From an uncultured Bacteroides sp. (lineage in GTDB: Bacteria; Bacteroidota; Bacteroidia; Cytophagales; Cyclobacteriaceae), in NCBI GenBank assembly GCA_902168185.1, contig CABHOV010000072.1:62001-126000 (forward strand): DNA of 64,000 nt, in the 5' to 3' direction. Below, piece after piece: positions 7,536-39,627 of the stretch (its first letter is position 1; each line of letters opens with the position of its first letter). The position numbers were made by a program, and so were the translations under genes. The notes under the pieces were generated by a model. It was not told the origin of the DNA and searched no databases. It saw only the letters and a list, made by a program, of their open reading frames with translations.

Positions 7536-9416
7536 TTACCTGCCACTTCCTCTCATCAGTGAAAAAACCAGTTGGGCTGCACTTACAACTTCTGACGGGC
7601 ATGTTGTGGGTGTATAGGCATCCGGTACGGTTTCATCATATGGTTCCTGACGGGTAGTATCAAGCTGGAATACGATAGCCGCTCTTCGTAAAAGCGGGTA
7701 TATAACATCAGCTTGTTGTGCCGGGGTCATCCGTTGTAAACGCTGCGCCATCGCTTCGTCACGGTGAACAGACTCTGCGTCCTGAGTCATGAATTCACCC
7801 GTAGCGTGCGTTGCCAATGGATCGCCCTCAACGGTATCACTGGGAAGTGAGTATAATTCTCCATTACCCAGTGGCACAACGGAAAGTGCAGTTCCGGAAG
7901 CACATGTACCGGTAGTCGCGAGCGAAGTACATATTTCTTGTAGTCTTTGCAAGGCTGCATTGGCCCGTGCTTCTGCCAATGCTGTATTTCCCATGAAGGT
8001 GCTTCCTCTTCGTCTGGCGAGTGGCCCTTCCGGAGAAGTAAATCCTTGTATTTCTGTTACACGGTAACCGCTTCCCAATAGCTGTTGTATAGCAACGAGG
8101 TTCGCCCTGCTTTGTGCAAGGTTAATGGTGTCTGTTGCGTAATTAAAGTATATATACTTTGTGAGTATATCCGTTGAGGGTACGGTACGGGTTCGCGGCA
8201 CAGTGTGTTCAGGAACCAGTTGTTCGCATACGTACCGGGTTGTGATCCGCTGCGTTACGGAAGTACAATTGAACCTGTCCTGCCTGCGGCCTATAGTCCC
8301 TCCTATATGTATCCCGCCACTTATACCCGATCCAGTTCCGCCTTGTACATCTACCCCGACATCAACAGGTCCTAGCTCAAGATCCAGACTACCACGACCA
8401 CCGCTGACGCTTTGGGAGCTAAGTGTAATTTCTCCCCGGGCAGTTAAGCGAAATGTGCCTGACTGTGCAATGACAACTTCCAGAAAAGGTGTTGCCTCGG
8501 CTCCCTGTAGTATTCCGGAGATCTCAGATGCGGGGGCTCCGCGTGTAATCGCCTCCAGTACTTGTTGCGCTACCTGGCGCGCTGCCTCTGGTATATTCGC
8601 GCCAAGCTGTACGTCACCTCGTAAATTATCTCTGCACCACGATAGTGTTACTGAAACGGTCTCTTCATTCGCATCCGCGCTCACGCGTGGACGCGGTATA
8701 GTTCTGCGTATAGTCGTATTGATAACGCGTGTTACCCGGTAGGTTACACCTTCATGATTCACCTCTGCTGTGTTTGGACCGGTTACACGTGCGGAAGTTC
8801 GTTGTACAAGTTTTCCTGATCCTCCTTGTTGGAGGGTATGCGTAAGCTCATGTGCCAGCAGATATCTCCCGGAAGAAGACTCCGGTGTATATTTTCCGGA
8901 ATTAAAATATATATCATTTCCTACCGTGAATGCCTGCGCCTGGAGATCGGAAGATAGTTGTGCTGCATAATCTCCGGTGTGAATACGAACGCCTGAAAAG
9001 TCGGCACCGAAACGACTCTCCATAAAACTTTTGGTAGTCGTATCAAGTGTATTTCCACTCCCACGGGTTGACCCAATTTTAGCACTGACAGAATCCGATG
9101 CAACGGTGTTATTCCCCGACATTTCCTTTTTCTGTATAAAGGAAGCGAGCGGTTTCCGTTGTGCCGTTTCCTCGTCCTCGCACTGGGAACATTTACGCTG
9201 TATAAAACTACTCTCTGGCATGCGCATTACTTTGTCAGCTATAGCATCCGCTTCAGTCTCCAACGGGTCGTCCACTGCACCAACAGATAATTTACACTGA
9301 ATGGGCAACGGTGAGAAATATAGCGGCTCCGAAGTATCCTGCAACGAACTCTGTGGTACTATAGCCGAAGCCGGGGAAGTGTTTGTTGGTGATGATTGCG
9401 TAGCGCGCTCCTGCAT
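7536..9416 (-). CDS. DUF4157 cargo-type protein with OmpA-like C-terminus
   Basis: A 626-residue protein in the eCIS cargo block. Residues 39-69 resemble the DUF4157 lead-in (CKL.VGAV.DP.E..AD, VMRMPE), followed by a Cys pair (KCSQC) and the leader KPLASFIQ at 89-96. The DUF4157 core follows, with HELTH at 189-193. Then come a Gly-rich beta region and, near residues 420-500, a segment like an OmpA-C peptidoglycan-binding domain (IYFNYATD, TSPEG, then an Arg/Ala helix). The start MQER at 9416 was preferred over 9449 because sister genes begin MHEH/MHEQ; the longer start remains possible. DUF4157 proteins are known eCIS-linked putative effectors. What this one does to a target is unknown. Confidence 0.8.
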   Translation of the reverse strand: MQERATQSSPTNTSPASAIVPQSSLQDTSEPLYFSPLPIQCKLSVGAVDDPLETEADAIADKVMRMPESSFIQRKCSQCEDEETAQRKPLASFIQKKEMSGNNTVASDSVSAKIGSTRGSGNTLDTTTKSFMESRFGADFSGVRIHTGDYAAQLSSDLQAQAFTVGNDIYFNSGKYTPESSSGRYLLAHELTHTLQQGGSGKLVQRTSARVTGPNTAEVNHEGVTYRVTRVINTTIRRTIPRPRVSADANEETVSVTLSWCRDNLRGDVQLGANIPEAARQVAQQVLEAITRGAPASEISGILQGAEATPFLEVVIAQSGTFRLTARGEITLSSQSVSGGRGSLDLELGPVDVGVDVQGGTGSGISGGIHIGGTIGRRQDRFNCTSVTQRITTRYVCEQLVPEHTVPRTRTVPSTDILTKYIYFNYATDTINLAQSRANLVAIQQLLGSGYRVTEIQGFTSPEGPLARRRGSTFMGNTALAEARANAALQRLQEICTSLATTGTCASGTALSVVPLGNGELYSLPSDTVEGDPLATHATGEFMTQDAESVHRDEAMAQRLQRMTPAQQADVIYPLLRRAAIVFQLDTTRQEPYDETVPDAYTPTTCPSEVVSAAQLVFSLMRGSGR

Positions 9417-9460
9417 ACTATCTCTTTTAGAATCTATATTATACTTCAAACATTATACGC

Positions 9461-10666
9461 TTAAGCCATTCCTGTGTCTCCGCTTGGAATCGGAAAATCT
9501 CCGACCGGTGGCCGTACACGCGCAGGCATTGTCGGCCGCATGCGTGTACGCCACGTTGTTATATTTGACTGAATGAAATTATACCTTGCCGGTGAACGCT
9601 GCTGGAGTACAGAAGGGTTAGCAACGAATGCTGCTATAGATTCCGCAAAGTCTTCACTCGGGCCTCCATCTACGGCATATCTGGACATAGGCTGCTCGCT
9701 TAGCGTAGGATCAAACCAACGCGATGTCGTGATGATGTGCTGCGGAGGCAATTGTGTTTGATTGGCTATAGCAGCGCGTACGGTTGGCTGCCCTATATCA
9801 TATAGCACCTCCGGATTTCCAATCCACCCGACAACCGCCTTGAATTGTACAAACGTCTGATTGTTCTGCGAAGCCATAGCAGCTTCCGCAACACCATGTC
9901 CTAATTCATGCATGATGGTACTCGCTATATCTCTGCCTCGATCCCGTGATGCAGTCGGAGCTCCCTGCTGTGTATTTATACCAATTGCCGGGTTTGTGGA
10001 TCCACTGAATGCTTCAAATATAGTCAGGTTGCCAGCACCAAAAGATGCACCTATAGTTGTATCCGGAATGCCCGCCCCGGTTGCATCAGGCTCGTATGCT
10101 ACTTTAAAGAAAGTTATATTCGTGATGGTAGGTACTGCCCCCATTACGCTGGCCATGTTTTCAATTCCATCGATGATACTGGTATAGTCTCCTGACGCGC
10201 TTCCGGGATCCCACGACTGCCACCCGGTAATCGTTACAGGTGGTAAACCTCTTCGCGTGCTACGTTGCTCCTGCTCTTGTTGCGTACCGGTATGAATATC
10301 GATAACACCAAAGTTTTGCATGACATACGCATCGAATTCTTTCCTGGTAATGTTACCCGTGGGCCTGAACCGCGCTTTTTGATTGGCAGAAAATAAACTT
10401 CCGGGAGCTGTTGCCGGAGCTGCTTGTCGTTGAATCGATGGTGTATTATTTCGTTGTTGAATGAATGACGCGAATGGCTTTAGACAAATTGTTCCTCCAT
10501 CGGCACTATAATTTTTACGCAGCATAGAGCCCACCACCGGAACATACGGAATCTTATCTACCTCTAAGCTACTGCCTATATCTCCAACGTGTAATGCGTT
10601 GTGCGAGCATACCTGTGATGAAGGTGCCACGCTGGCAGGTTGTGGTATAGTAGTTTGCTCATGCAT
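9461..10666 (-). CDS. cargo-type zinc metalloprotease carrying the eCIS leader
   Basis: A 401-residue protein without the DUF4157 core. It keeps only the leader KPFASFIQ at residues 63-70, followed by its own catalytic region: HELGH at 253-257 and a downstream acidic segment SEDFAES (337-343) that could supply the third zinc ligand. This is a gluzincin-like arrangement, but the family was not recognised. The start MHEQ (10666) is preferred to the upstream codon at 10714 because sister genes begin MHEH/MQER. It lies between two DUF4157 genes. It is probably a delivered protease; target unknown. Confidence 0.7.
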   Translation of the reverse strand: MHEQTTIPQPASVAPSSQVCSHNALHVGDIGSSLEVDKIPYVPVVGSMLRKNYSADGGTICLKPFASFIQQRNNTPSIQRQAAPATAPGSLFSANQKARFRPTGNITRKEFDAYVMQNFGVIDIHTGTQQEQEQRSTRRGLPPVTITGWQSWDPGSASGDYTSIIDGIENMASVMGAVPTITNITFFKVAYEPDATGAGIPDTTIGASFGAGNLTIFEAFSGSTNPAIGINTQQGAPTASRDRGRDIASTIMHELGHGVAEAAMASQNNQTFVQFKAVVGWIGNPEVLYDIGQPTVRAAIANQTQLPPQHIITTSRWFDPTLSEQPMSRYAVDGGPSEDFAESIAAFVANPSVLQQRSPARYNFIQSNITTWRTRMRPTMPARVRPPVGDFPIPSGDTGMA

Positions 10667-10704
10667 CAATTTACAGTATAGTATATATGGAACATAATAT
10701 ATAG

Positions 10705-12225
10705 TTAAGGGCAAGCCGGTGGAGTATTTTGCTCTACCTGATTTGGCCCCAAAAATATTTCACGTATAGCGTCAACATGTGCCTGCACAACAACCCTCCT
10801 TGCATCCTGTTGTGCTTGTGTTTGCATGTCCTGTATGCGTTGCCCGCGTGGCATCTCTATAGTAATGATGCGCATAGCCTGACGGTTGCGTGACGGATTC
10901 GATGCATCACAGACTGCAGTACTTCCCCAGCCACCGAGACTGACACCTTCGCCCCGATGATCGGCCGTCGGTTCACCTCTGCTCCTGCGTTGACGCTGTC
11001 CAGGTTGTGCAATCGCGGGGTCAAGTGCATACGTAGTATTCTCAGGAGATGTACCCAAACGATTACCGCTTACAGCTGCACCACGGCTTTGTGCCAGGCG
11101 TGCCATTTCCAGTGCTAACGCTCTGTCGGAAGTATATCCCAAGGCAATTTGATTTTGATCTGTTCTCGGATCAGCAAAAATTCCAGCAGCACTATCACTA
11201 TGCATAGCATGTACACTTACAATTCTGCTGGGCCTGATGCTATTGATAAGATTCAGCAACATTATATTTTCACGTTCTATAGGCCTGGCTCTGCTATCCA
11301 GTGAAGTAGCCGGATCAAACGATCTTCCGAATTCCGGCATCTGCCGATTCGGATCTACACCGCGGGCACCGGTATATCTCCCTACATTTGTATCTGCCCG
11401 GATCGCTGCAGGATCGCTCTCCCGTATAGCTGCGTTATCCGGAAACAAACGCGGTACAATAGTAACAGTATAGTAAGGTCGCGGTCCGGTTCGCAATTGA
11501 TTAAGCAATGTCTCAACAACTTCAATTCCCGATAACTCAGAGCCATGTACCCCTCCCAACACCAATGCCTGGTTACTGGTTGTTCCTGTAAACTGAAATG
11601 CATCTATACTCCTGTTGCCAGCAGAATCTCCAAGATGAATGGGTGCAGGTCCACTTCTGGGTAACGCTTCGGCATGTGTAGAATATTGCCTGTCGGTATG
11701 CTCGGTAATTATTCGCTGGACAGATGTATGGTGTGTTTTTTGTTGAAGCGTATGTGTTAACTCGTGCGCCAGTAACCGTTTACCCGCTAAAGACTCCGGT
11801 GTATATTTACCGGAATTAAAGTATATATCATTCCCAACGGTAAAAGCTTGCGCGTTCAGCGCCTCAGATAATTGGGAGGCCTCTTTACCCGCATGAATAT
11901 GTACCTTAGAAAAATCCGCGCCAAAACGACTCTCCATAAAACTTTTGGTCGGTATGTCTAGCGGATTACCAGTACCTCGCGTTGATGTTATTCTATTACT
12001 GACGGAATCTGGAATAACATCAGTGCCACCAGACATTTCTTTCTTCTGAATAAATGAAGTAAGTGGCTTTGGTTGGGCATTTTTGTCTTCGTAATAAAGA
12101 CGTTTCCGTTGCACAAAATTGTTCGCAACCATATCAATAGCCTTACCAGGCATTGTGATCGCTTTAACACCAATCGCGGAGGAAGCTGGTTGCGTTTTTT
12201 GTGTGGACGTTAAATGCTCATGCAT
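10705..12225 (-). CDS. DUF4157 protein fused to M14-type zinc carboxypeptidase domain
   Basis: A 506-residue protein. The leader KPLTSFIQ is at 53-60 and the DUF4157 core at about 85-162, with HELTH at 154-158. The second half reads as an M14/succinylglutamate desuccinylase-like zinc hydrolase: HGSE (His227, Glu230) as the HxxE zinc pair, DPNR (291-294) as the substrate-binding Arg motif, His339 as the third ligand, and Glu457 in TIEMP as the catalytic acid. In bacteria this fold includes murein tripeptide amidases and carboxypeptidases, so peptidoglycan peptides are one candidate substrate and protein C-termini another. It is a strong candidate eCIS effector. Confidence 0.8.
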   Translation of the reverse strand: MHEHLTSTQKTQPASSAIGVKAITMPGKAIDMVANNFVQRKRLYYEDKNAQPKPLTSFIQKKEMSGGTDVIPDSVSNRITSTRGTGNPLDIPTKSFMESRFGADFSKVHIHAGKEASQLSEALNAQAFTVGNDIYFNSGKYTPESLAGKRLLAHELTHTLQQKTHHTSVQRIITEHTDRQYSTHAEALPRSGPAPIHLGDSAGNRSIDAFQFTGTTSNQALVLGGVHGSELSGIEVVETLLNQLRTGPRPYYTVTIVPRLFPDNAAIRESDPAAIRADTNVGRYTGARGVDPNRQMPEFGRSFDPATSLDSRARPIERENIMLLNLINSIRPSRIVSVHAMHSDSAAGIFADPRTDQNQIALGYTSDRALALEMARLAQSRGAAVSGNRLGTSPENTTYALDPAIAQPGQRQRRSRGEPTADHRGEGVSLGGWGSTAVCDASNPSRNRQAMRIITIEMPRGQRIQDMQTQAQQDARRVVVQAHVDAIREIFLGPNQVEQNTPPACP

Positions 12226-12314
12226 TAATAATATACTATTGATGTACTATTAAATTTATTTTATTTTACTAGCAACCGAGACTCAAAAAGGTGAGTAGCA
12301 TATTATTCACCTGA

Positions 12315-12902
12315 CTAATTCCTGCCCCATTCCTTATTAAGGTTTTGCTTTAATCTTTCAATTTCTTCATCTCTACTTTCCGGTTCTTTGTATACTGTAT
12401 AAGGTATATTTAATACTGTTGCCAAGAAAAAGGCAGCTAAATCCTTTATGCGATATTTATAGGCATTTCCTTGCGTAGCATCCCTACTTCCTTCATAATA
12501 CACCCTGCCTGTATTTTGTAATAGAGAACTGAAGTCCTTCACAATGGCTTGTCCTAATGCCACTACATGTTGTCCCGTTCCTCCATTAAGGAAGCCAGGG
12601 AGCCCCCAAATGTTTGCATTCACACTTCCGCCTTGTCCCAGAATAGAAGCATATAATTGAGAAAGTTCATTTTTTAAATTGTCAGGAGGAAATTTTTTTT
12701 CTTTTAGAAATAAGATTTCTGAACTTAAAAAACGTGCTTCTTCCGGAGCGTCATGATCCGTGATCACTTCATAAAGCTTATCACGATTTCCTGGATAACT
12801 CCATATTTCATTTAGCAAGGTTTCATCCATTCTGAGAAAGAGTTCTATAAATCCATGTCGAAGTAAAGTTGATACTATATCCTCATTTCTATAGGCTTCC
12901 AT
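12315..12902 (-). CDS. unrecognised 195-residue protein in the cargo block
   Basis: Not recognised. It is a soluble-looking protein with no signal peptide, a helical N-terminal half, a Gly-rich loop (GLPGFLNGGTGQH) in the middle and a charged C-terminus. It lacks the leader and the DUF4157 core of its neighbours. Local base composition looks more A/T-rich than adjacent genes. Placed between two cargo genes, and 24 bp after the DUF4157/SH3 gene, it could be an immunity protein, a loading chaperone or an effector; none of these is supported by a motif. Confidence 0.6.
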   Translation of the reverse strand: MEAYRNEDIVSTLLRHGFIELFLRMDETLLNEIWSYPGNRDKLYEVITDHDAPEEARFLSSEILFLKEKKFPPDNLKNELSQLYASILGQGGSVNANIWGLPGFLNGGTGQHVVALGQAIVKDFSSLLQNTGRVYYEGSRDATQGNAYKYRIKDLAAFFLATVLNIPYTVYKEPESRDEEIERLKQNLNKEWGRN

Positions 12903-12926
12903 ATTTCATGCTTTATAGGCTTAATG

Positions 12927-14429
12927 TCATGCTCTTTCATCCGTTAATTGACTACTTGGAATCCACCCGTCACGACCAACATGTGGACCATCCACTACAC
13001 GGATAAATACCATACCCGCCAATGCAGGATCTGGTGAAGCGCTACGCATGATATGAACACGGGTACCGGTTGGTAATAAACGTGCCGGAAGATTTCCCGG
13101 AAGGTGTTGATTAAGATTTATATTATTAACATTTGTAATCTTCACGTCTACAGCCCGTAAGGGTATATTTGCTGTACCTGCTGAAGTACTTCCTGAATTC
13201 CATATTTCAGTAGACTTTATAAACGTAGATGTCGGGACACCACGTGAGGCAATTTGAAATGGTATTTTTGTTAAGGCTCCTGCTGCATCGGTTCTCCACC
13301 CCCATCTTACGGACCCATAATACATACCAGTTTGTACTCCTTCAAATGCAAATGCCGTAGTTTCAAAAATTTGACCTGAATTTACATTAGCATCATTTAG
13401 CCCCGTTTCGTCATGTAGTTTGGCATCGTGTTGTTGTAAGGCACCGCTACTATCAGTAAATCTAAATCCATGTTCTCCCCACGTAGCATTTGGTGGCAAA
13501 GAATTTAACTGCGTTCCTGTAGATCCTTCAACAGCATACAATGGATTATTATTTGTTGCAGACTGATCAATATGAAATCCTTCATCAGTCTCTCCGGTTG
13601 TCGCATTTGTAGTAATAGCAGAAGCAGCTCCAATCGAACGACCTCTCACAGTAGCATCATTATTGATTTGATAGGGCCGACCATTCTTCACAGAATTTAC
13701 AATCTGTACAAGACCAATTTTAGTTGCATTAACATTGCCTTGGGGTTTAAATTTCATATCCATAGCAACAGAATGCTGTGCTCCGCTTACACTGGTTGTA
13801 TAATTTTCATCTTCCCACTCGCCACCATTAGTCTGCAACGTGGCGCGCTGAATAATCTTTGGTCGCATTGCATTTATTGTACCATTTTGTTGAATTGTAT
13901 GCGTCAGTTCATGCGCCAACAAATGCTTTCCATTTGATGACTCCGGAGTATATTTCCCCGAATTAAAGTATATATCACTACCAACAGTAAAGGCCTGTGC
14001 ATTTAATTCAGACGAAAGAGTAACTGCATCGTTATTCGTATGAATACGTACCCCCGAGAAGTCTGTACCAAAACGACTTTCCATAAAGCTCTTGGTCGTT
14101 GATGGTAGCGGACTACCACCTCCTTTTGTCGATTGTATTTTACTGGAGACAGCATCGGAGGCAACGGTATTGCTACTGTCGTTTTTTATTTCCTGTTTCT
14201 GTATAAAAGAAGCTAGGGGTTTTCGTTGTGCGTGCTCTTCCTCTTCACACTCCGTGCACTTGCGTTGAATCAGTGCATTCTCTGGCATGCGCATCACCTG
14301 GTCAGCAACGGCATCGGCCTGTGCCTCCATCGGATCATTAACAGCACCTACTGTCAGCTTGCATTGAACGCTTGCTGCTGCTGACTCCATTCCTATCTTC
14401 TCCGTATTTTTTGACGGCTGCATATTCAT
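12927..14429 (-). CDS. DUF4157 cargo-type protein with SH3-like C-terminus
   Basis: A 500-residue protein. The lead-in (CKLTVGAV, VMRMPE) is at 23-50, the Cys pair KCTEC at 57-61, the leader KPLASFIQ at 70-77 and HELTH at 173-177. The C-terminal part is Asn/Gly/Thr-rich and ends in a segment that looks like a small SH3 domain (LPTGTRVHIMR, then GRDGWIPSSQL). The start MNMQ was chosen over the upstream ATG at 14450, which would overlap the ATPase gene; it leaves a 17-bp gap. It is the first cargo gene after the structural operon. The middle region has no recognised fold. Confidence 0.78.
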   Translation of the reverse strand: MNMQPSKNTEKIGMESAAASVQCKLTVGAVNDPMEAQADAVADQVMRMPENALIQRKCTECEEEEHAQRKPLASFIQKQEIKNDSSNTVASDAVSSKIQSTKGGGSPLPSTTKSFMESRFGTDFSGVRIHTNNDAVTLSSELNAQAFTVGSDIYFNSGKYTPESSNGKHLLAHELTHTIQQNGTINAMRPKIIQRATLQTNGGEWEDENYTTSVSGAQHSVAMDMKFKPQGNVNATKIGLVQIVNSVKNGRPYQINNDATVRGRSIGAASAITTNATTGETDEGFHIDQSATNNNPLYAVEGSTGTQLNSLPPNATWGEHGFRFTDSSGALQQHDAKLHDETGLNDANVNSGQIFETTAFAFEGVQTGMYYGSVRWGWRTDAAGALTKIPFQIASRGVPTSTFIKSTEIWNSGSTSAGTANIPLRAVDVKITNVNNINLNQHLPGNLPARLLPTGTRVHIMRSASPDPALAGMVFIRVVDGPHVGRDGWIPSSQLTDERA

Positions 14430-14446
14430 ATATAGTATATTTATAA

Positions 14447-15964
14447 TCACATCGTCTTACCTTCTTTCTTAAACTCTTTGCGGATACCTTGTAGCAAATC
14501 ATCGATCGTGATGACCTTATCATTACGATTCAACGCCAGCAACGAAGCATACTGTACTATATTCATGATCGATCCTCCAGAGAGTTCATACTGCTGGGCT
14601 ATACGTTCCATATCACTGCTGGGGGGAGGCTGACATGCCGAACTGAAAGCACTGTTCCAAAGACGAAGTCGTTCACGGGGTTGTGGTTTCTGGAAGTGTA
14701 TAATGGATTGCAATCGTCTCGTGAAAGCTTCATCAACGTTGTTCCTCATATTGGAAGCGAGTACTACAAGTCCCGGATAATCCTCGAGTCTTTGTAGCAA
14801 GTATGCTATTTCCTGGTTAGCATATTTATCATGAGCATCTGATATACCTGTGCGTTTTCCAAAGAGCGCATCGGCCTCATCAAAAAATAAAATCCAGTTT
14901 TTATTTTCCGCTTTGCGGAATACCTTTTCCAGGTTCTTTTCCGTCTCCCCTATAAATTTAGAAATGACCATCGACAGGTCAACGCGGTATACATCGAGGT
15001 TATAGAGTTTACCCAGCAGCGCTGCCGTAAGTGTTTTACCGGTTCCGGGAGGTCCATGAAATAGAGCTTTGTAACCTGGCTTGAGTTTTTTATCCATTCC
15101 CCATTCTTCATATAGCGTACGACCGTGCTTGAGCCATACCCGAAGCTCGTCAAGTTGTTGTGCAGTAAATTCGTCTACCACCAGGTCACTCCACTCCATT
15201 TTGGTAGCCAGGCGTTTTGCAGGAAACTCCGTGCTGAAGGTTGGCTTGCGTACATTTCCTGTTGTAAAGAAATCAACATACTCTTCTGTTATCAGAATAG
15301 AACTGCTATAGAATGGTTCGCTGGCTTGCCCTTGTTCAAGACTGATAATGTTATGAGCCGCGAAGATGTGATCCGGTTCAAATAATTTATATACTCGAAA
15401 GCGGTAACTAAGATCATTGCCTGCCAGTAAAAAAAGTGCTGTTTCGATGGTGGGTATAAATCCGCTATGCCGGCTTCCTTTCACGCCACCGAATTCGGTA
15501 TAGCCTCTTCCCAATGCTTTATTGACAGAGAAAAATACATCCAGTAAGTGAGGTTGTACATGTGGGATTATCGACAGGATCAATACCAATCGTTCGTCCG
15601 CATTAAGTTTATAATAGTTGACGAACTCTGCATATATAGAGGTATCGTTGGCTAGGTCCGGTATAGATATAGTATCTGGGATAGTGGAAGGATCTTTAGC
15701 GGACTGTGTGGAAGCGCCTTTGGGCGTACCTCTGTTCAATATCTTATTGATCCAGCTGTGCTCTTCCTCCTGCTGAATTTCAAATTTCTCCCTCGGAAAG
15801 TAATCTTGCAGCCGTTCATTTACAACGCGCGCGAACCATGCGATCTCGCGTGCAAGCGTCTCTGCATTGCGGTCCAGTGGAGCGGCTGTCATTGCGGATT
15901 CTGACAGGATTATTTCTTGTCCCATACTTTCATTTTTACCATTCAACATAAATTGGATAGTCAT
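14447..15964 (-). CDS. eCIS AAA+ ATPase (Afp15/Pvc15-like)
   Basis: A 505-residue AAA+ ATPase. Walker A GPPGTGKT lies near residue 304, Walker B ILFFDEAD near 361, and sensor/Arg-finger segments follow (LASNMRNN, then FTRRL). The N-terminal half matches the helical and wing part seen in Afp15/Pvc15 proteins. These ATPases are needed for assembly or cargo loading of the injection particle. The gene overlaps the tape-measure-family gene by 29 bp. Alternative starts at Met6, Met14 or Met25 would remove part of the overlap. Confidence 0.92.
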   Translation of the reverse strand: MTIQFMLNGKNESMGQEIILSESAMTAAPLDRNAETLAREIAWFARVVNERLQDYFPREKFEIQQEEEHSWINKILNRGTPKGASTQSAKDPSTIPDTISIPDLANDTSIYAEFVNYYKLNADERLVLILSIIPHVQPHLLDVFFSVNKALGRGYTEFGGVKGSRHSGFIPTIETALFLLAGNDLSYRFRVYKLFEPDHIFAAHNIISLEQGQASEPFYSSSILITEEYVDFFTTGNVRKPTFSTEFPAKRLATKMEWSDLVVDEFTAQQLDELRVWLKHGRTLYEEWGMDKKLKPGYKALFHGPPGTGKTLTAALLGKLYNLDVYRVDLSMVISKFIGETEKNLEKVFRKAENKNWILFFDEADALFGKRTGISDAHDKYANQEIAYLLQRLEDYPGLVVLASNMRNNVDEAFTRRLQSIIHFQKPQPRERLRLWNSAFSSACQPPPSSDMERIAQQYELSGGSIMNIVQYASLLALNRNDKVITIDDLLQGIRKEFKKEGKTM

Positions 15965-17297
15965 TCCATGGCATTATGATAACAGAATATCCCCAGGGAA
16001 TTTTGTCGAGCAATACATCTATAGTCTTTCGTTCCACCTGTAGCTGCCAATGCATATTGGTTCTGACGAGTACGCCATCGCGAACGAGAAAAGCATCCCG
16101 AAGTCCTTGAACCGAACTATTTCGCAAAGCACTCCAATGTTCGATAACAGCACGCAGCAAAACCTCAGCTTCGTCAAGGTCATCGCGACTAAGAGCAGCA
16201 TTTACAGGTATTGGTTCTTCTAGTGGTACTCCGCATATAATCTTCTCCAGCACCAAACTATATTCAGGAATATATTCTTCACCTGTACCAAGAAACCCGA
16301 CAAGTTGCACAGCTTTGTACTGCGCAGGCTTATTTTTCCAGGCTACACCTTCCAGCAACCCAAGCTTCTGAAAAAAAGGACGAAGGAACTGCGCCAGTAA
16401 AACAACACCACCGTGCTTCGTTATATATTTTTCGTCAGTGGTGATTGCATCCTGAACGAATGGGGCAACCTTACCCTCTACTATAGATTCAGGCAAACCT
16501 GAACTTGCCTTTATATTCCGCCAAGCTTCCACTATACTTTGTGAATAGGCCGCGTTATCAATAAATAGATCAGGTATTGATCTGTCAAATACAGATTGAA
16601 AGGAATCCTTGGTATAGCCTTTACTTGAAAGCGAGGGGATCGCCTTTAACAGAATCGTTGTAATGAAAGACCTTGTCTTTTCAGTATACATTTCGTGCCC
16701 TATATATTTTTCAATCTTGCGAATCCATTCCTCTATAAGTATAAATCCCTGCGTGAGTTCAGTAACCATAATGGTAATAGCATGTTGTACTTCGCTGTTT
16801 AGTTGAAATACAATTCTACTCCACACAGCAGCATTCGTGGTATTCGCCTCCAGAAATAATTTTACTTCATGGGGCTGTTCCCTTACCAATATCCACGCAA
16901 TGTCATTTAAAACAACATCATTTTGATCAACCCACCAGGGCGTTGTTCCGTGCAACAATATATATTTAAACAATTCCAACTGTGAATGTCCCACAGAAGT
17001 CCTTCCTTCATGATTTGGAAGAGCCGCTATTTTTTGTACTAACGCCTGTTCAAATTTATCCGCGAAGATATCCACGAACGTGTCCTGAAAGGAATGCGAA
17101 CTAAATATACCCAAGTCAAATGCAAGTGTATCAATCTGAACCGATTCATTATCGGGTATATGTTGCGAACATACACGATCCATTACTTCTTCGATCCGTT
17201 GTTGAAAAGTCTGGGCAAAATTATGACGCATGCCAAGTGCCTGCCCTTCGTCAGGACAATGGATCTCGATTTGTAATTGATTTACTATATGTTTCAT
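15936..17297 (-). CDS. CIS tape-measure-family protein
   Basis: A 453-residue protein whose first 75 residues match the contractile injection system tape measure (CIS_TMP) signature: HIVNQLQIEIHCPDE, a Phe/Gln-rich helix (FAQTFQQRIEEVMDRV), then IDTLAFDLG. The rest is helical. In related clusters the gene sits directly before the ATPase, as here. It is short for a physical ruler of a long tail, so the family name may overstate its role. It overlaps the ATPase gene and is probably co-translated. Confidence 0.8.
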   Translation of the reverse strand: MKHIVNQLQIEIHCPDEGQALGMRHNFAQTFQQRIEEVMDRVCSQHIPDNESVQIDTLAFDLGIFSSHSFQDTFVDIFADKFEQALVQKIAALPNHEGRTSVGHSQLELFKYILLHGTTPWWVDQNDVVLNDIAWILVREQPHEVKLFLEANTTNAAVWSRIVFQLNSEVQHAITIMVTELTQGFILIEEWIRKIEKYIGHEMYTEKTRSFITTILLKAIPSLSSKGYTKDSFQSVFDRSIPDLFIDNAAYSQSIVEAWRNIKASSGLPESIVEGKVAPFVQDAITTDEKYITKHGGVVLLAQFLRPFFQKLGLLEGVAWKNKPAQYKAVQLVGFLGTGEEYIPEYSLVLEKIICGVPLEEPIPVNAALSRDDLDEAEVLLRAVIEHWSALRNSSVQGLRDAFLVRDGVLVRTNMHWQLQVERKTIDVLLDKIPWGYSVIIMPWNDYPIYVEW

Positions 17298-29622: not shown

Positions 29623-31074
29623 CTACGATGTTTGCATCATCTGCTCAAACTTCAGGATGATAAACTCAGCAGGACGCGCAACGGCCATACCTATTTCAAC
29701 AATCATGCGACCTTCCAGTATATCTACGGAGGTCATGGTAGACCCCAGTCCTATATTTACAAAAAATGCCTGCTCGGGAGTTGCCCCTGCCAGTGCACCA
29801 TCTCTCCACTTGAGGTATAGATAATTTTCAATCATCGCTTTTACCTTTACCCAGGTGGGTGAAGTGTTCGGTTCGAAGATTGCCCAGTTCGAAGATTTCT
29901 TGATGGATTCTTCCACCACGCTGAAAAAGCGTCTTACATTTATATACCGCCATTCATTGTCGTTACCATCGAGGGTTCTTCCACCCATGACAACGGTTCC
30001 GTATCCCGGCATATTGAGAATAGCATTGACCGATTTACCAGTATCGGAATTCACGTTGAGAAGATCGTGTTCTGAACGAGACACCGATACTCTTGGCTTC
30101 ACAACGTCCATGAGACCAACGTTGGCAGGAGCCTTCCAGAAACCACGCTCGCGATCGACACGGGAATATACCCCGGCCATAGCGGCTGATGGTGGCAACA
30201 CCATATGATATTTACCATACTCTGCAGCGATGGCGTTATACATACTCGAAGCTGTATTTTTCAATACCGATAAGGCTACACCTGTTTTATCATCTGCCGG
30301 TACGGTTGGCGCAGCACCATTTATAGTATGCGTACCAATGGTGAGTGCATCGAAATCGAAGTTATAGCTATAGGAAGTTTCAAGATACGGGTAATATACC
30401 GCGCCATATCTTCTGATCGAGCCATCTACGGGTATAGTACCAATAGCGGTTGCTACATCTGCATTAACAGAGCTCGAAGTCTTCGGCACGGTGGTCAGAT
30501 ATGTATCCATGATAGCAAAGCGATCTTTGAGTGTAGCGGCCTGATTGATCATCTTCTGATTGACCGCTTCATACGCAGCTTGCGCTGCAAGATTAATCGC
30601 TTCAGGCACTACCAGCATGGTAGGTGTATCTTCATTGGCAATGATGTCCAGGCCACGTTCCAGATCGGCCTGTGCGACCGTTCCGGTATATCCGCCAATA
30701 GAAACGATATAGCATCTACCACCACCGTTGGTGAAGAAGTGTCTCATGGCATAGTATAAAATGTGGTCGCTGGTGTTTGCTGCATTTACCGTGATCGTGG
30801 TTTTGAATCCAGTTGTTTGTGTACCGGTCTTCAATTCATCTACCGCCAGTGTTACGTTCGCTGCTACTTCCGTGGGAGGTCCGCCAAAGTACTGCTTGAA
30901 ATCAGCAAGGCTGGTAATGGGAGTTGGTACATCGGTAAGATCACCTGCAACAAGCAAGGTCGCTTTTTCAGTATACCCGATAAACGCGGGCACGGCTGAT
31001 TCAACTTCAGCGATGGATGGTGGCAGAAGAGATATTTCTTCTACATAAACACCGGGTGAACGATAGTTGGCCAT
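29623..31074 (-). CDS. eCIS contractile sheath protein (Afp2-like)
   Basis: A 483-residue sheath protein. The N-terminus has the classic YRSPGVYVEE motif and the C-terminus the conserved module MVEIGMAVARPAEFIILKF (with local variation), as in T4 gp18 and Afp2/Pvc2. It is the only sheath gene in the locus, whereas Afp and PVC carry two or three paralogues, so the particle is likely built from one sheath type. Confidence 0.96.
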   Translation of the reverse strand: MANYRSPGVYVEEISLLPPSIAEVESAVPAFIGYTEKATLLVAGDLTDVPTPITSLADFKQYFGGPPTEVAANVTLAVDELKTGTQTTGFKTTITVNAANTSDHILYYAMRHFFTNGGGRCYIVSIGGYTGTVAQADLERGLDIIANEDTPTMLVVPEAINLAAQAAYEAVNQKMINQAATLKDRFAIMDTYLTTVPKTSSSVNADVATAIGTIPVDGSIRRYGAVYYPYLETSYSYNFDFDALTIGTHTINGAAPTVPADDKTGVALSVLKNTASSMYNAIAAEYGKYHMVLPPSAAMAGVYSRVDRERGFWKAPANVGLMDVVKPRVSVSRSEHDLLNVNSDTGKSVNAILNMPGYGTVVMGGRTLDGNDNEWRYINVRRFFSVVEESIKKSSNWAIFEPNTSPTWVKVKAMIENYLYLKWRDGALAGATPEQAFFVNIGLGSTMTSVDILEGRMIVEIGMAVARPAEFIILKFEQMMQTS

Positions 31075-33774: not shown

Positions 33775-36700
33775 CTACGGCTCGATGCTCATGGTAAGCA
33801 ACGGCACAACCTTAACAAATCCATTCTGATCCTTGCGGAATTTATAGGTATAGTTATAGTGTGTCTCAAGCTTACTTTCATTTGGCAAACCATTCACGAG
33901 GCAAATATTGCGCTCCTCTGCAAAGTTGATAAGCTCTTTCAGATAGGTTGCCGAGATCTGTCCTACTTCATCGATGATACAATGCACGAAGAAGTTACGC
34001 GCCGTCTTTTCTGTTGATTCCTTTATGAACACATTCAACAGTGTTATATAGATCACAGCTTTCACAAGCATATCCGTGCCGGTGGAACCAACCTTGTCGA
34101 TCTTTTCAATCCAGCCTGTATCGTTTTTACCTTCCTTGATTCTGAAGCGCAATTCAAATAGATCCTGCACACGAATCTCTTCATGCTTCTCTTCACTGAT
34201 TGTTTTCTGAAGATCGTTCAGTAGTTCAACCGAGCGTTTATCAATTTCGGCTTTTGCTTTATTAGCCTGGTTAAACAAATTTGCTTCACCGTATAGAAAC
34301 GGATTTTGATCACGGAACTCTGCTATACGCTGTAGCTTGCGCAATACTTTATTTTCACTGTCTTCCGACTTCAACTTGATATACTCGATCAAGCGTGAGC
34401 CTTCAAAGGAAGCCCTGCTGAAATCGGCTTCCATTTTACTTACCATCTTATCAATCCTTCCCTTATGCTCGATAAGTGCTTTCATCTTACTGGCAATGGC
34501 ATCGATCAACATACCATGGCTCTTGGCAACTTCCGCTATAGATGTCTGGATCTTGTTCTCATTATAGAAATCCTGCAAGTAAGCCGCGAAGCGTTCGTAT
34601 TCACCTTCACCGGCTTGTGCATTGATCTTAAAATTCAAATGGTTATCAGGGCGGAATCTTCCGGCAAACTCCGTGACGTTATTCCTGAACTTCTCAAATT
34701 GATTGTGATATTCTGTATCGTTGGCCAGGAGTTGAGAGCAAAGTCCAATGATACCGATCTCTGAATGCTCTGCAGGAGCAGGCTCAATAACATGACGGAG
34801 ACGATCAAACAATGCGCGCTCCCGAAAGTGTCTTTCGAAATGCTCGAGGCCATCGGTATATCTTTTTAATTCCTCGGCCAATGCGCGGGTATCGCTCTCG
34901 TATTGTGACAATCTCTTTGCATGCATCTGCTTTTCATTTGCAAATTCACGTTCCGATTGTTTAATGCGCTCTTCAAATTTCTCTTTCTCTTTTTTAAATT
35001 CTTCTATCTTATCAAAAAGCTCACGCTTGTCTTTGCGGTAATCATTGATAAGTTCAGCGTGTTTATCAAGCGCATCAAGTGCTGCTTTGGTTGTCTCAAT
35101 TTCTGATCGTAGTTTTTTTATACGCGTATCATCAACACCTTTTGTCTTGAGTACTTTTGATTTCTCCTTTTGCAGATTGGCTTTGCGCTCATCGTATTCT
35201 GCAACCTTTTCTTCTTTCTGTTCTTTTAATTTCGCGGCTTCTGCCTCGAATGCTTTTGTTACCTGGACAAGCTTATCGTTAAAGCGTTTCTGCAGAGTCG
35301 CTGTATCTTTACTCAACACTGCGTCAAGCTCTGATATTGTTTGCTTCAGTGAAGCCGATTCCTTCTTTATAGCCTCCTGTACACTATATATCTCCAGTAA
35401 ATCCTTTTCACGAAGTGCTTCACCCTTACTTTTCCATTCGAGAAGATCAAGATTATACTGTTTTTCTTTCTGTTCATCCTGACCGGCTTCGTATTCAAGC
35501 TGCGCGATCTCATTTTTCAGGTGCGCAGTCTTCTTGCCTATTGATGCGAGTCGTGACTGTTCTTCATGTGCCTGCGCTTCACGGAATTCAAGGAAAGCAT
35601 GATTGAGTTGGGCGAGCTTTTCAAGGTGCATGCTCTTCTCTTGTTCATACTCATCGAGTGTCTTCGAATATACACTTACGTTGGAGAGATCAAGTTCAAT
35701 CCCATACAAGGTGTCAATCTGTTTTTTGAGAAGCCTGGGGTTAAGATCCTGGTTGAACAAAATTTCCTCGTTACATACTTTACCAATGGTGGCATACCAA
35801 TCGGGATAGTTTTCCTGGAGGAATCCGAAGAATGTATTCTGATGTATAGATAGCTTTGCATCAATGCCCTTGATCTTCTCTTCGAGCAGGGTAACTTCTT
35901 CCTTGTTTCGTGATACATATTGCTCGGATGTAAGCTTGTTCTTATCACGAATGTGATCACCTTCTTTTTTCAGCGACTCAATGGTATTGTTCTTTATACT
36001 CAGCAAAGAAGAGCGCTCCACTTTATGGCGCGCTATATCTTCCAGGTGCCCTTTTAACAACCCGATCTCTTTGTCGAAGTATTTCTTCTGATGAATATCT
36101 TTTTCCTTGAAATCAGCGTCTTTTCTTTCAAGCTCTTTTTGATTGAGCAACTGCTTATAGCGATCGGTCTCCGAACGGAATTTTTCTTTTAACTCCCCTT
36201 CCTCTTTGCGATAATTTTCTTTCAGGTTGTTCTTGTCCTCTTCCAGCTTCCTGTCGAGTTGAAGTCCTTTTGCATTGAGTACATTTTCAAATTCCTTGCG
36301 CTCATTCTCCAGCGCACTGAACAATGTTTTGAATTGCTGCTCTACATCACTGAACCCTGCAGTGAGTGTTGCATATTCAGTTTCGCGTGCCTGCAATTCA
36401 AGGGCGAGCTGAGGTTTCTCCTCAGCTTTCAAAAGCAACTCACGTATACCTTTATCTTCGTACTCTTTCAGTTTTTTATCGGCTTCACGAAGTTTTGATT
36501 TCAACGCACCGATCTCCTGGTTGACCTCTTTATTTTTCTCCTGATGTATACTTTCTTTCTCACGGAACTCCTGTTCTACTGCCGTGATCTCTTCACGCTT
36601 GGCATTAACCTGTTCTACCAGTGTTTCTTTCTGCTCGATGCCATACTTCAATGCTCCCCCTAATTCTGTTGCCAGGGAACGTTGCTTGTGTTTGAGGTTG

Positions 36701-37461
36701 CGTATGTTTCCAAAGTTATCCTTGATAAGGTCACCCCGTTGTGAATTCTCCTTCCTGAAAAAGGTCTCTATATCCTGATAGCGTTCTGTAAACTGGCGGA
36801 GTTGCCGCTCTACGGTTTTCAGCTCGATGTTGGTATGCTTGGTGGTGATCGAGTTGGCAATACACTCCTTTACAAACTCCGCACGTATGGTGGACTCTGA
36901 ACTTAAAAAGATAGAGGTTATAGCGAGCGGTATATTGTGATAGTTGCTATTCCCCTTCATCAGGGCGAACTTCTTATACTTCTTATCAGGATCTGCGCCA
37001 TATATAATATTCCGGTAGCGCTCAAAGGTTTCAATCTGGTCGCTATAGTTTATACGCTGCTCATTAAACCGGGCCACGATCTGCTTGGGCAATAATGCTT
37101 CACTGTTATCGATATAGTGTTCCTGAACAAAGGGGCTCTCGACGAAACGATAGAAAAGCTTATTGTTGCGATATACCATTACGTGAAATATACTTTCCTC
37201 TGTAGCAATCTCGTAAATGATATAGGAGTTCGGATACTGAAAGTAATAGTCTTCAAACGACTTCTGTGAACTTGATATACCCAGACCGCGTGTATTAGCG
37301 CTGTAGAAAAACAATATAGCACGCTGCAAGGTTGTCTTGCCCATATTGTTGGTACCTACGAAACACGTGTTCCCCGCTATTTCTATGCTGGCGTAATCCG
37401 TGTTGGCTATATTAATAAATATGATCCGGTTAAGGATTCGTCTGTTCTCCATCATCTTCAA
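33775..37461 (-). CDS. MukB/MksB-like SMC ATPase
   Basis: A 1228-residue SMC-type ATPase of the MukB/MksB/JetC group. Walker A GTNNMGKTT is at residues 36-44, and the C-terminal half-head holds a signature-like GSTGTDMLVKA near 1127 and Walker B HCIIDEVG near 1160. Two very long Lys/Glu-rich coiled-coil arms (about 250-540 and 640-880) flank a hinge-like region near 540-620. It acts with the E and F partners encoded upstream to fold or extrude DNA. The gene overlaps the E gene by 32 bp; Met3 or Met4 could be the true start. Confidence 0.9.
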   Translation of the reverse strand: MKMMENRRILNRIIFINIANTDYASIEIAGNTCFVGTNNMGKTTLQRAILFFYSANTRGLGISSSQKSFEDYYFQYPNSYIIYEIATEESIFHVMVYRNNKLFYRFVESPFVQEHYIDNSEALLPKQIVARFNEQRINYSDQIETFERYRNIIYGADPDKKYKKFALMKGNSNYHNIPLAITSIFLSSESTIRAEFVKECIANSITTKHTNIELKTVERQLRQFTERYQDIETFFRKENSQRGDLIKDNFGNIRNLKHKQRSLATELGGALKYGIEQKETLVEQVNAKREEITAVEQEFREKESIHQEKNKEVNQEIGALKSKLREADKKLKEYEDKGIRELLLKAEEKPQLALELQARETEYATLTAGFSDVEQQFKTLFSALENERKEFENVLNAKGLQLDRKLEEDKNNLKENYRKEEGELKEKFRSETDRYKQLLNQKELERKDADFKEKDIHQKKYFDKEIGLLKGHLEDIARHKVERSSLLSIKNNTIESLKKEGDHIRDKNKLTSEQYVSRNKEEVTLLEEKIKGIDAKLSIHQNTFFGFLQENYPDWYATIGKVCNEEILFNQDLNPRLLKKQIDTLYGIELDLSNVSVYSKTLDEYEQEKSMHLEKLAQLNHAFLEFREAQAHEEQSRLASIGKKTAHLKNEIAQLEYEAGQDEQKEKQYNLDLLEWKSKGEALREKDLLEIYSVQEAIKKESASLKQTISELDAVLSKDTATLQKRFNDKLVQVTKAFEAEAAKLKEQKEEKVAEYDERKANLQKEKSKVLKTKGVDDTRIKKLRSEIETTKAALDALDKHAELINDYRKDKRELFDKIEEFKKEKEKFEERIKQSEREFANEKQMHAKRLSQYESDTRALAEELKRYTDGLEHFERHFRERALFDRLRHVIEPAPAEHSEIGIIGLCSQLLANDTEYHNQFEKFRNNVTEFAGRFRPDNHLNFKINAQAGEGEYERFAAYLQDFYNENKIQTSIAEVAKSHGMLIDAIASKMKALIEHKGRIDKMVSKMEADFSRASFEGSRLIEYIKLKSEDSENKVLRKLQRIAEFRDQNPFLYGEANLFNQANKAKAEIDKRSVELLNDLQKTISEEKHEEIRVQDLFELRFRIKEGKNDTGWIEKIDKVGSTGTDMLVKAVIYITLLNVFIKESTEKTARNFFVHCIIDEVGQISATYLKELINFAEERNICLVNGLPNESKLETHYNYTYKFRKDQNGFVKVVPLLTMSIEP

Positions 37462-37978
37462 TTGTAATTAGTGAAATAACCTGTTCGAGGTAATGAATAG
37501 CATCCATTACTTTATAGGTATCTTCATCTTCCTGTTCAAAAAATCCTCCGGTCGTCAGGTCGTTGGCAATCTCCGTTACTTTGTCAGTCATCTTCTCTCG
37601 CCGCGACAAGGCAAACAGTTTTTGCTTTAGGCGTTCGTTCGCATAGCACTCTTCCGCAATTTGGGTAACACGATAGCGTGTGCCCACCGCAGGCTTTGTA
37701 TCCATCGATGAAAAGAAATCCATTACATCAATGTAATACGCAAACTGCTCGAGCTTCTTTTCCATCAACGTATTGGTCTCTTCCTGTTGACTGAAATAAA
37801 AATAGTTATACCCTTTCTCCAGGTGATATCCAGTATGGCTGAAGAACTCTTTGAGAATTGCAAAGTTGTCTTCGTAGGCAATAACATCGAATAACTTTCC
37901 TTTACTCCCATTGGAGCTGATGAAGTTACCCTTACTGAGTATACTGAATATTTCCGGTGTCTGTTTAGGAATGTTCAT
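37430..37978 (-). CDS. MksE/JetB-like condensin subunit
   Basis: A 182-residue winged-helix protein of the MukE/MksE/JetB type by size, position and features: IFSILSKGNFIS, YFSQQEETN, a Tyr-rich helix (FAYYIDVMDFF), and a C-terminal segment TTGGFFEQEDEDTYKVMDAIHYLEQV. MukE-family proteins bind F and DNA and gate the ATPase head. It is encoded between the F-like and B-like genes with 56-bp and overlapping spacing, so it is one operon. Sequence similarity to the family is weak by eye; context carries most of the call. Confidence 0.82.
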   Translation of the reverse strand: MNIPKQTPEIFSILSKGNFISSNGSKGKLFDVIAYEDNFAILKEFFSHTGYHLEKGYNYFYFSQQEETNTLMEKKLEQFAYYIDVMDFFSSMDTKPAVGTRYRVTQIAEECYANERLKQKLFALSRREKMTDKVTEIANDLTTGGFFEQEDEDTYKVMDAIHYLEQVISLITIEDDGEQTNP

Positions 37979-38034
37979 TCGTTAATCTCATAAAGCTTTA
38001 GGCGCAAAGCCGAAAAGCCTGGTTATATATTTTG

Positions 38035-39627
38035 TTAGCGTGGAGCCTTTAACTTGGTGCTGCGAGCTCTTGGCTTTTTACTTTTAGGTTCTTTTACTTT
38101 CTCCTGCAACACTTCATGCTGAGTTTCTATAGTTGAGATTTCGGTGTCAACTTCCAGTACTTCATTCTCCGCTTTAAGAACAACATCGGGAGATTCGCTC
38201 TGTGGCTCGCTTTCCTGTTTCTGCTTTTTGCCCGGAGCCTTCTTCCTGGCTTTCAGTTCTTTTACCGGCTTGGCCTCCTTCTGTTCTGCCACTGCTATAT
38301 TTTCAATCTCCAGTTCAGAAGGCTTTGTTTCAACCTCTACCGCGTTCTCACTAAGTACTATACTTTGAACCTCGACCGGCTGTATTTCACTCTCTGTTTT
38401 AAGCTTTACACCTTGTGCCTGCTTCTTGGGTTTAATAATAGCATAGCCCACCCGTTGGTTCTGGTTCTTTTCATTTACGAAATTCATTTTACCGAACTTC
38501 CCGTTGATCTGGAGTTTGTCATCAAAGTCAATGGAAATACCAACGTATAGCGAGATGCGTTTTTCAAGACTGAGCTCTCCCACCTTCTCCGGAAACTGGT
38601 ATTGCATCACAAATTGAAAGAGATCATCATCCGTCTTTAAGAACTTGTCTACAAGGCCGGTAATATTCAGGCTGGATGATTCTTCCAGGTTGCTGTTATC
38701 GAATCCTGCTGCTAATCTTCCTGCCGGTTTACGATGTGTATTGCGGAGTAAATGTAGCTTCGATGCCACTTTTTTGGTAAGCATAAAACCATGATCGGAA
38801 TGTAGAAAGTCCAATGACAATCTTCCCTTTAATGGAATACGCTTATGAAAGAACAAGGCTTTTGTATTGGCGACTACTTCTACGAAATTGGTTTTATACT
38901 TCAGCTCTTCATAATCTTTCAACTCCTTGAGTCGCTGAATTTTCTTATAGATCTCTGATTGATATTGGATCTTGTTGATATAGTCGATGATCTGCGACTG
39001 GATCTCGTTGAGATAATCGCGGTTACGCACCAATGTATACCGAAGATCAAGCACGATGGAACTAAGCTCAGCATCTATAATCGTATTGAAAAATCCCTGT
39101 GCATCAGAAACGATCTGCTCGGATTCCTTAATCAGGTTAATGATATCATCACGCTTGCGTTTATACTTATCAAGCTCTTGTAGCTTGATAACATAGTTGT
39201 CCTGGTTCTTGTAAGTGTCATCTATATTCTTGTGAAGCTTCATCACTTCACGCGAAGTAGTGGAGTTGATCTTCTTTAAAGAACGCTTGATGCTGCGAAG
39301 AAACTTTGGATTGCTATCAATGCGATAGTACTTGAGACTCTCCGTTAAAGTCTGGATGTTATCGTTGATGAAACTGGTAGTGACTTCTCCGATCTCCAGG
39401 AATTCTTCGATGAATGTTGTGATGCGATCGTCAAGCCCGATGATGTTGTTGTTCTCGTGAATGAGCTCATACATCACCAGTTTTTCCAGCTTCTCGTCCG
39501 TCATGTCTTCACGGGCAAGAATCTCAGACTTGTTAACGGAATCCTTGTTGCCAAAAAGCATTTCGATCACCTCTCTGTTTTGGTAGAGCAGGTTAATAAG
39601 ATCTTTAATGCTTAACGGATTCTTCAC
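38035..39627 (-). CDS. MksF/JetA-like kleisin
   Basis: A 530-residue protein in the kleisin position of a MukF/MksF/JetA operon. The N-terminal 110 residues look like a winged-helix domain, the centre (about 115-245) is helical coiled coil, and residues about 260-395 form the C-terminal part that would touch the ATPase. The last 110 residues or so are a low-complexity tail with alternating Lys/Arg and Glu/Ser blocks (KARKKAPGKKQKQ, ending STKLKAPR). It is the first gene of the operon, with a consensus -7 element about 90 bp upstream. Confidence 0.8.
   Translation of the reverse strand: MKNPLSIKDLINLLYQNREVIEMLFGNKDSVNKSEILAREDMTDEKLEKLVMYELIHENNNIIGLDDRITTFIEEFLEIGEVTTSFINDNIQTLTESLKYYRIDSNPKFLRSIKRSLKKINSTTSREVMKLHKNIDDTYKNQDNYVIKLQELDKYKRKRDDIINLIKESEQIVSDAQGFFNTIIDAELSSIVLDLRYTLVRNRDYLNEIQSQIIDYINKIQYQSEIYKKIQRLKELKDYEELKYKTNFVEVVANTKALFFHKRIPLKGRLSLDFLHSDHGFMLTKKVASKLHLLRNTHRKPAGRLAAGFDNSNLEESSSLNITGLVDKFLKTDDDLFQFVMQYQFPEKVGELSLEKRISLYVGISIDFDDKLQINGKFGKMNFVNEKNQNQRVGYAIIKPKKQAQGVKLKTESEIQPVEVQSIVLSENAVEVETKPSELEIENIAVAEQKEAKPVKELKARKKAPGKKQKQESEPQSESPDVVLKAENEVLEVDTEISTIETQHEVLQEKVKEPKSKKPRARSTKLKAPR

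Follow-up and report, generated by a model that had tools for sequence, protein, structure and literature searches.

An AlgoCIS-type extracellular contractile injection system (eCIS) locus, with sheath, tape measure and AAA ATPase genes and DUF4157 cargo at its 3′ end, lies in a 64,000-nucleotide stretch of DNA from an uncultured Bacteroides sp. (contig CABHOV010000072.1, positions 62,001 to 126,000), the whole of which was analysed and is termed here the window. We found that the motif KP(L/F)(A/T)SFIQ of its four cargo genes (P1 to P4, Table 1) is one copy of a recurring short box, [ILVF]Q[RK], the last before the DUF4157 core where that core is present. We tentatively propose, with a probability of about 0.4, that these boxes belong to the DUF4157 module and are recognised or cut by that predicted peptidase. 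The original prediction had placed the motif in all four metalloprotein genes, where we located four minus-strand copies, and had singled out the gene given there as 9461-10666 (P2) as lacking the DUF4157 core of the other three and having its own HELGH. Pfam agrees with this division: P1, P3 and P4 match eCIS_core/DUF4157 (PF13699) with 106-109 bits (cut-off 22; E 9e-31 to 1e-31) and contain HExxH, while P2 has no Pfam match and hence is no DUF4157 member. In NCBIfam, none of the four cargo proteins has a match above the cut-offs.

To place the boxes relative to the core, we counted [ILVF]Q[RK] in the DUF4157 proteins of the window and of the fetched loci, 206 distinct ones in all, and in shuffled sequences for comparison. 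Upstream of the core we found 580 boxes (shuffle mean 45, max 63) and in the 60 residues following it 218 (shuffle 16, max 28), against a single box inside the core (shuffle 17) and a number close to background in the remainder of the protein (90 versus 76). At least one upstream box is present in 189 of the 206 proteins and at least one box within 60 residues after the core in 174; counted by core unit, 192 of 229 have post-core boxes. The boxes flank the folded peptidase pieces on both sides, in both of the domain orders described below, with almost none within. In the AlphaFold2 model of P1 the box linker has block pLDDT (predicted local distance difference test) values of 46-69, which we read as disorder, and the linker is probably disordered. 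The earlier idea of a compact leader with a single job is not supported: the helix upstream is most likely part of the peptidase fold, and KPxxSFIQ is a linker box that recurs, downstream of the core as well.

Some leaders carry whole arrays of boxes, such as the eight [IV]QKK copies in a fragment from genome G127 and the nine-residue units of one AlgoCIS cargo protein. We considered whether the rise of the tube rings sets the box spacing and rejected this, the spacing modes being 8-9, 13, 22 and 42 aa with no single period. Separately, 152 of 190 leaders of related loci have a CxxC pair just behind their first box (QRKCxxC-like), a possible metal or redox site that is absent in P2 and P3.

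The exact KP(L/F)(A/T)SFIQ form is found in 21 of the 206 DUF4157 proteins. A 24-base degenerate DNA pattern for it, blind to DUF4157, gave 13 matches in 5 of a 245-genome sample of the family, compared to none for the reversed pattern used as control. The four matches in this genome are all inside P1-P4, and 12 of the 13 fall in cargo genes of this genus; for the thirteenth, in genome G093, no listed open reading frame (ORF) of at least 60 aa contains that peptide. The KP is weakly conserved: homologues of P2 with 70-75% identity show SQLASFIQRKK and SNLSAFIQRK, that is ASFIQRKK or SAFIQRK without KP, with a second IQRQ 17 and 21 residues beyond the first box.

The ordered part of the leader is a helix with an ExEAD pattern (residues 25-39 of the P1 model, block pLDDT 87-96). 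It is most likely the helix carrying the third zinc ligand of the DUF4157 peptidase, circularly permuted. Gluzincins (MA(E)) combine HExxH with a third ligand, a Glu, on a helix C-terminal to it. In P1 and P4 ExEAD is N-terminal to HExxH, and in the relatives that we call order A it lies 29-33 aa after HExxH. Tallied over all core units found (ORFs called mechanically, duplicates between loci removed by sequence, N-terminal helices scored by profile and C-terminal ones by pattern), 317 units with HExxH comprise 241 with ExEAD only before the core, 35 with it only 29-33 residues after HExxH, one with both and 40 with neither. A strict rule of one ExEAD helix per core is thus rejected, and the third-ligand rule is true for most cores only. 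In P3, the nine residues spanning ExEAD in P1 are missing, and HELTH and the boxes are kept. HExxH itself is intact in 200 of 200 cores.

Among known structures, the effector domain of VgrG2b (6h56) shares the HExxH core and an eCIS or type VI secretion system (T6SS) cargo context, with a tentative zincin-like fold match over the core. Its third ligand is given, in the available part of the source, as E983, C-terminal to HExxH, while in most of the Bacteroidota cores examined, as well as in cyanobacterial and some proteobacterial relatives, ExEAD is N-terminal and followed by the box linker. Foldseek gave no match at E<1, and PDB sequences queried with a leader-core profile, and separately with a single protein of order A, showed no relative, the single match (E 0.37) being chance-like. 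Both orders also occur side by side in a protein encoded on an Acaryochloris plasmid (locus L214, 3294-5009), where a core of permuted order stands in tandem with one of canonical order. Furthermore, giant ORFs of about 2600-2970 aa in genomes G398 and G307 (loci L234-L236) contain two to three canonical-order DUF4157 cores each, and one of them contains a P2-like HELGH domain.

The leader had been predicted to be separable from DUF4157, and this is borne out by P2 in the window and by four other families. With P2 and its orthologues, the core-less families are a Chitinophaga pair, a protein of a Chitinophagales metagenome-assembled genome (MAG), one of genome G449 and a gene on a cyanobacterial (Pseudanabaena) plasmid. 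We searched with a leader profile, A2, built from 50 leaders with the core excluded, after 22 of 72 segments that extended into the core, had little length or consisted of long arrays had been dropped; its leaders were picked by the ExEAD pattern, so that ExEAD conservation inside A2 is no evidence, and it misses leaders with a decayed helix. Among 1051 distinct ORFs it separated 190 with leader and core, 14 with core only and seven with leader only, two of these truncated or very short. The complete leader-only genes are those of loci L072 and L073 (Chitinophaga), L100 (the Chitinophagales MAG), L126 (Hufsiella arboris, a P2 homologue) and L165 (G449). P2 and its orthologues in three genomes, where the ExEAD helix has decayed, are recognised by their boxes. 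Cargo of related loci carries the leader as well, AlgoCIS Cgo1 and Cgo2 included.

In a census of 296 genomes of the phylum, searched with a limited number of scored candidates per genome, DUF4157 was found in 65 genomes and the leader in 54, and none of the 231 genomes without DUF4157 had a match to the leader profile. When rows were matched by open-frame length, one leader ORF (G449) was without a core, which makes the core-less form rare; rare, too, is the P2 HELGH domain, present in 2 of the 296 genomes. In a MAG protein (locus L069, 8480-9865), boxes and DUF4157 are followed by a post-core IQRQ and a HELGH domain of the P2 type (E 2e-44 to P2). One effector domain thus occurs both with and without the core, and P2 resembles a form that has lost the core from between two boxes. 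The notion that every core-less leader protein has an HExxH of its own was rejected, being true for P2, L072/L073 and L100 and false for G449 (L165) and the Pseudanabaena gene. The AlphaFold2 model of P2, from 6 sequences, has a mean pLDDT of 33.

Our leading reading is recognition or cleavage by DUF4157, because the boxes sit at the edges of the peptidase pieces, the linker is predicted with low confidence, HExxH is intact and the boxes covary with their own core within loci (r 0.30, p 0.006; 0.21 on a smaller joint set). Several lines of evidence suggest that the circularly permuted ExEAD helix gives the third zinc ligand to HELTH, so that in P1 and P4 the box linker would connect two halves of one enzyme. 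Under this hypothesis, most cargo would have its boxes recognised or cut in cis and the core-less P2 in trans, and cargo would be trimmed, or freed from its N-terminal portion, either around the time of loading or once injected. A further elaboration, which we consider improbable, is a split enzyme whose zinc-ligand helix is linked to the catalytic core solely by the long disordered tether with its boxes. In the narrow tube the two halves would be kept apart and the peptidase off; upon ejection the chain would collapse, the helix dock and the zinc site be completed. The enzyme would then cut at the boxes, which would free the effector and, through the loss of its own tether, inactivate the enzyme, with core-less cargo such as P2 cut in trans. 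In a literature search that covered neither most subscription papers nor any preprints, we found no description of the boxes or of the permutation.

The naive expectation for one enzyme is that ExEAD covaries with its own core within loci, and it does not (r 0.10, p 0.21), a result qualified by the smaller variation of ExEAD identities (standard deviation 0.10 versus 0.14). Against cleavage by DUF4157, leader similarity between loci tracks ATPase similarity, though not exclusively; this is the one hint of the docking on tube, spike or ATPase that the original prediction had inferred. In partial Mantel comparisons of 57 and 37 loci, the partial r with core, tape measure and baseplate-like gene controlled is 0.34 (p 0.0005, 37 loci), and a rank version on 41 loci gives r 0.28 (p 0.001), or 0.40 with conserved-column controls; core similarity does not track the ATPase (partial r -0.40). 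In addition, the signal peptides of the Photorhabdus virulence cassette (PVC) and antifeeding prophage (Afp) set a precedent, those of PVC being described, in the available part of the report, as disordered and ATPase-dependent (Evans 2024).

The ATPase correlation and this precedent favour a loading signal, a somewhat less probable reading by which, in analogy to PVC/Afp, the AAA ATPase or the tube would read the disordered, box-bearing N-terminus during assembly and P2 would be loaded as well. The retention of boxes in P2 and its orthologues is consistent with it, and so is the comparison with AlgoCIS. The sheath of genome G616 agrees at all 691 of 691 residues with 7adz, the structure that the available AlgoCIS text gives as its deposition, so that G616 is either Algoriphagus machipongonensis itself or very closely related to it. 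The two DUF4157 genes of this genome, which we assign to Cgo1 and Cgo2 from their location in the cluster, match the leader profile at 9.3e-16 and 6.5e-13, and downstream of the second there is an ATPase homologue. According to the accessible part of Xu 2022, Cgo1 and Cgo2 both fill the AlgoCIS tube and have a common disordered N-terminal domain. They share with the cargo described here the ExEAD helix, the boxes, DUF4157 and the post-core boxes, and differ in that their boxes often read VQSQ instead of IQRK; that part of the account describes no motif, permutation or core-less cargo.

Within loci, too, leaders are more alike than core identity predicts (46 of 56 loci, p 3e-7). Split by part, this excess is nearly equal, at +0.078 for ExEAD (42 of 55 loci) and +0.082 for the boxes (40 of 55), and does not separate the hypotheses. 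Against loading stand the post-core boxes, placed where a leader is unneeded, and the lack of any leader-profile match in the 231 census genomes without DUF4157. Moreover, the baseplate-like gene equals the ATPase as a predictor in the rank test (0.29, p 0.001; 0.20, p 0.02 with conserved columns), and the ATPase gene is near the cargo genes, such that joint inheritance may explain the leader-ATPase correlation. PVC/Afp effectors likewise have a disordered, hydrophilic N-terminal region and a locus with an AAA ATPase. However, according to the accessible text of Danov 2024, no conserved signal sequence had been found there, in contrast to the short recurring box tied to DUF4157 found here. Cleavage by DUF4157 and loading are compatible, since the boxes could be the sites at which a loading segment is cut off.

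Finally, the boxes could be a lineage habit of low-complexity acidic/basic linkers, spread by duplication or recombination of cargo N-termini and having no specific partner; tandem arrays of varied period (9, 12 and 14 aa by eye) that fit repeat expansion and gene conversion, the weak KP, the homogenisation of both leader parts within loci and a mild box excess in 664 non-core ORFs of the loci (432 versus a shuffle mean of 328) point this way, but we regard it as unlikely given a 13-fold enrichment that spares the rest of the protein, the recurrence of boxes in cyanobacterial, proteobacterial and archaeal relatives (by eye) and the persistence of the boxes in P2 while its ExEAD decays.

Table 1. 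Features of the locus in window coordinates.
Feature	Position	Strand	Basis or remarks
Cargo gene P1	7536..9449	-	Leader, DUF4157 core, C-terminal domain; OmpA-like match weak, under cut-off
Cargo gene P2	9461..10714, likely start 10666	-	Leader boxes, HELGH metallopeptidase-like domain, no DUF4157
Cargo gene P3	10705..12225	-	Boxes, DUF4157 core, Peptidase_M14-like C-terminus; without the ExEAD residues of P1
Cargo gene P4	12927..14450	-	Leader with ExEAD helix, then DUF4157 core
KPLASFIQ, last box before P1 core	9132..9155	-	DNA pattern
KPFASFIQ in core-less P2	10457..10480	-	DNA pattern
KPLTSFIQ in P3	12046..12069	-	DNA pattern
KPLASFIQ in P4	14199..14222	-	DNA pattern
P1 upstream box FIQRKC	9189..9206	-	Sequence
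P4 upstream box LIQRKC	14256..14273	-	Sequence
P3 upstream box FVQRK	12103..12117	-	Sequence
P1 post-core box VQRTS	8793..8807	-	Sequence; post-core enrichment
P2 second box SIQRQ, at the expected place of a post-core box	10424..10438	-	Sequence, alignment
P1 ExEAD helix DPLETEADAIADKVM, proposed permuted third-zinc-ligand helix	9222..9266	-	Model helix 25-39
P4 ExEAD helix DPMEAQADAVADQVM	14292..14336	-	Homology
eCIS_core (DUF4157) of P1	8820..9047	-	Pfam profile
eCIS_core (DUF4157) of P3	11734..11964	-	Pfam profile
eCIS_core (DUF4157) of P4	13878..14111	-	Pfam profile
HELGH of P2	9896..9910	-	Sequence, alignment
AAA ATPase, candidate cargo-handling partner	14447..15964	-	AAA PF00004, E 1.7e-25
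Contractile injection system tape measure protein	15936..17297	-	PF19268, E 1.7e-107
Sheath protein	29623..31074	-	Closest solved relatives 7b5h (All3325), 7adz (AlgoCIS)

Among the named relatives found, Ohtaekwangia koreensis is closest (95% over P1), and 7b5h (All3325) is from the Anabaena thylakoid-anchored contractile injection system (tCIS). Between P4 and P3, a 195-aa gene (12315-12902) has no Pfam, NCBIfam or PADLOC match and is a possible immunity or accessory gene. Three adjacent genes at 33775-39627, one of them 1228 aa long and SMC-like by eye, had no PADLOC match and neither did P2, these and the 195-aa gene being the only queries. In a phage collection, nothing matched a 182-aa stretch of P1 that covers leader and core.

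The role of DUF4157 in contractile injection systems is described as elusive (Danov 2024) or left for further study in the available texts. DUF4157 function becomes addressable by point mutation, both of the third ligand predicted within the so-called signal region and of the boxes that border the module. The motif may mark a site of cargo recognition or cutting, and should the boxes prove to be signals for processing or loading, they would offer a sequence handle where, in those texts, none has been reported before.
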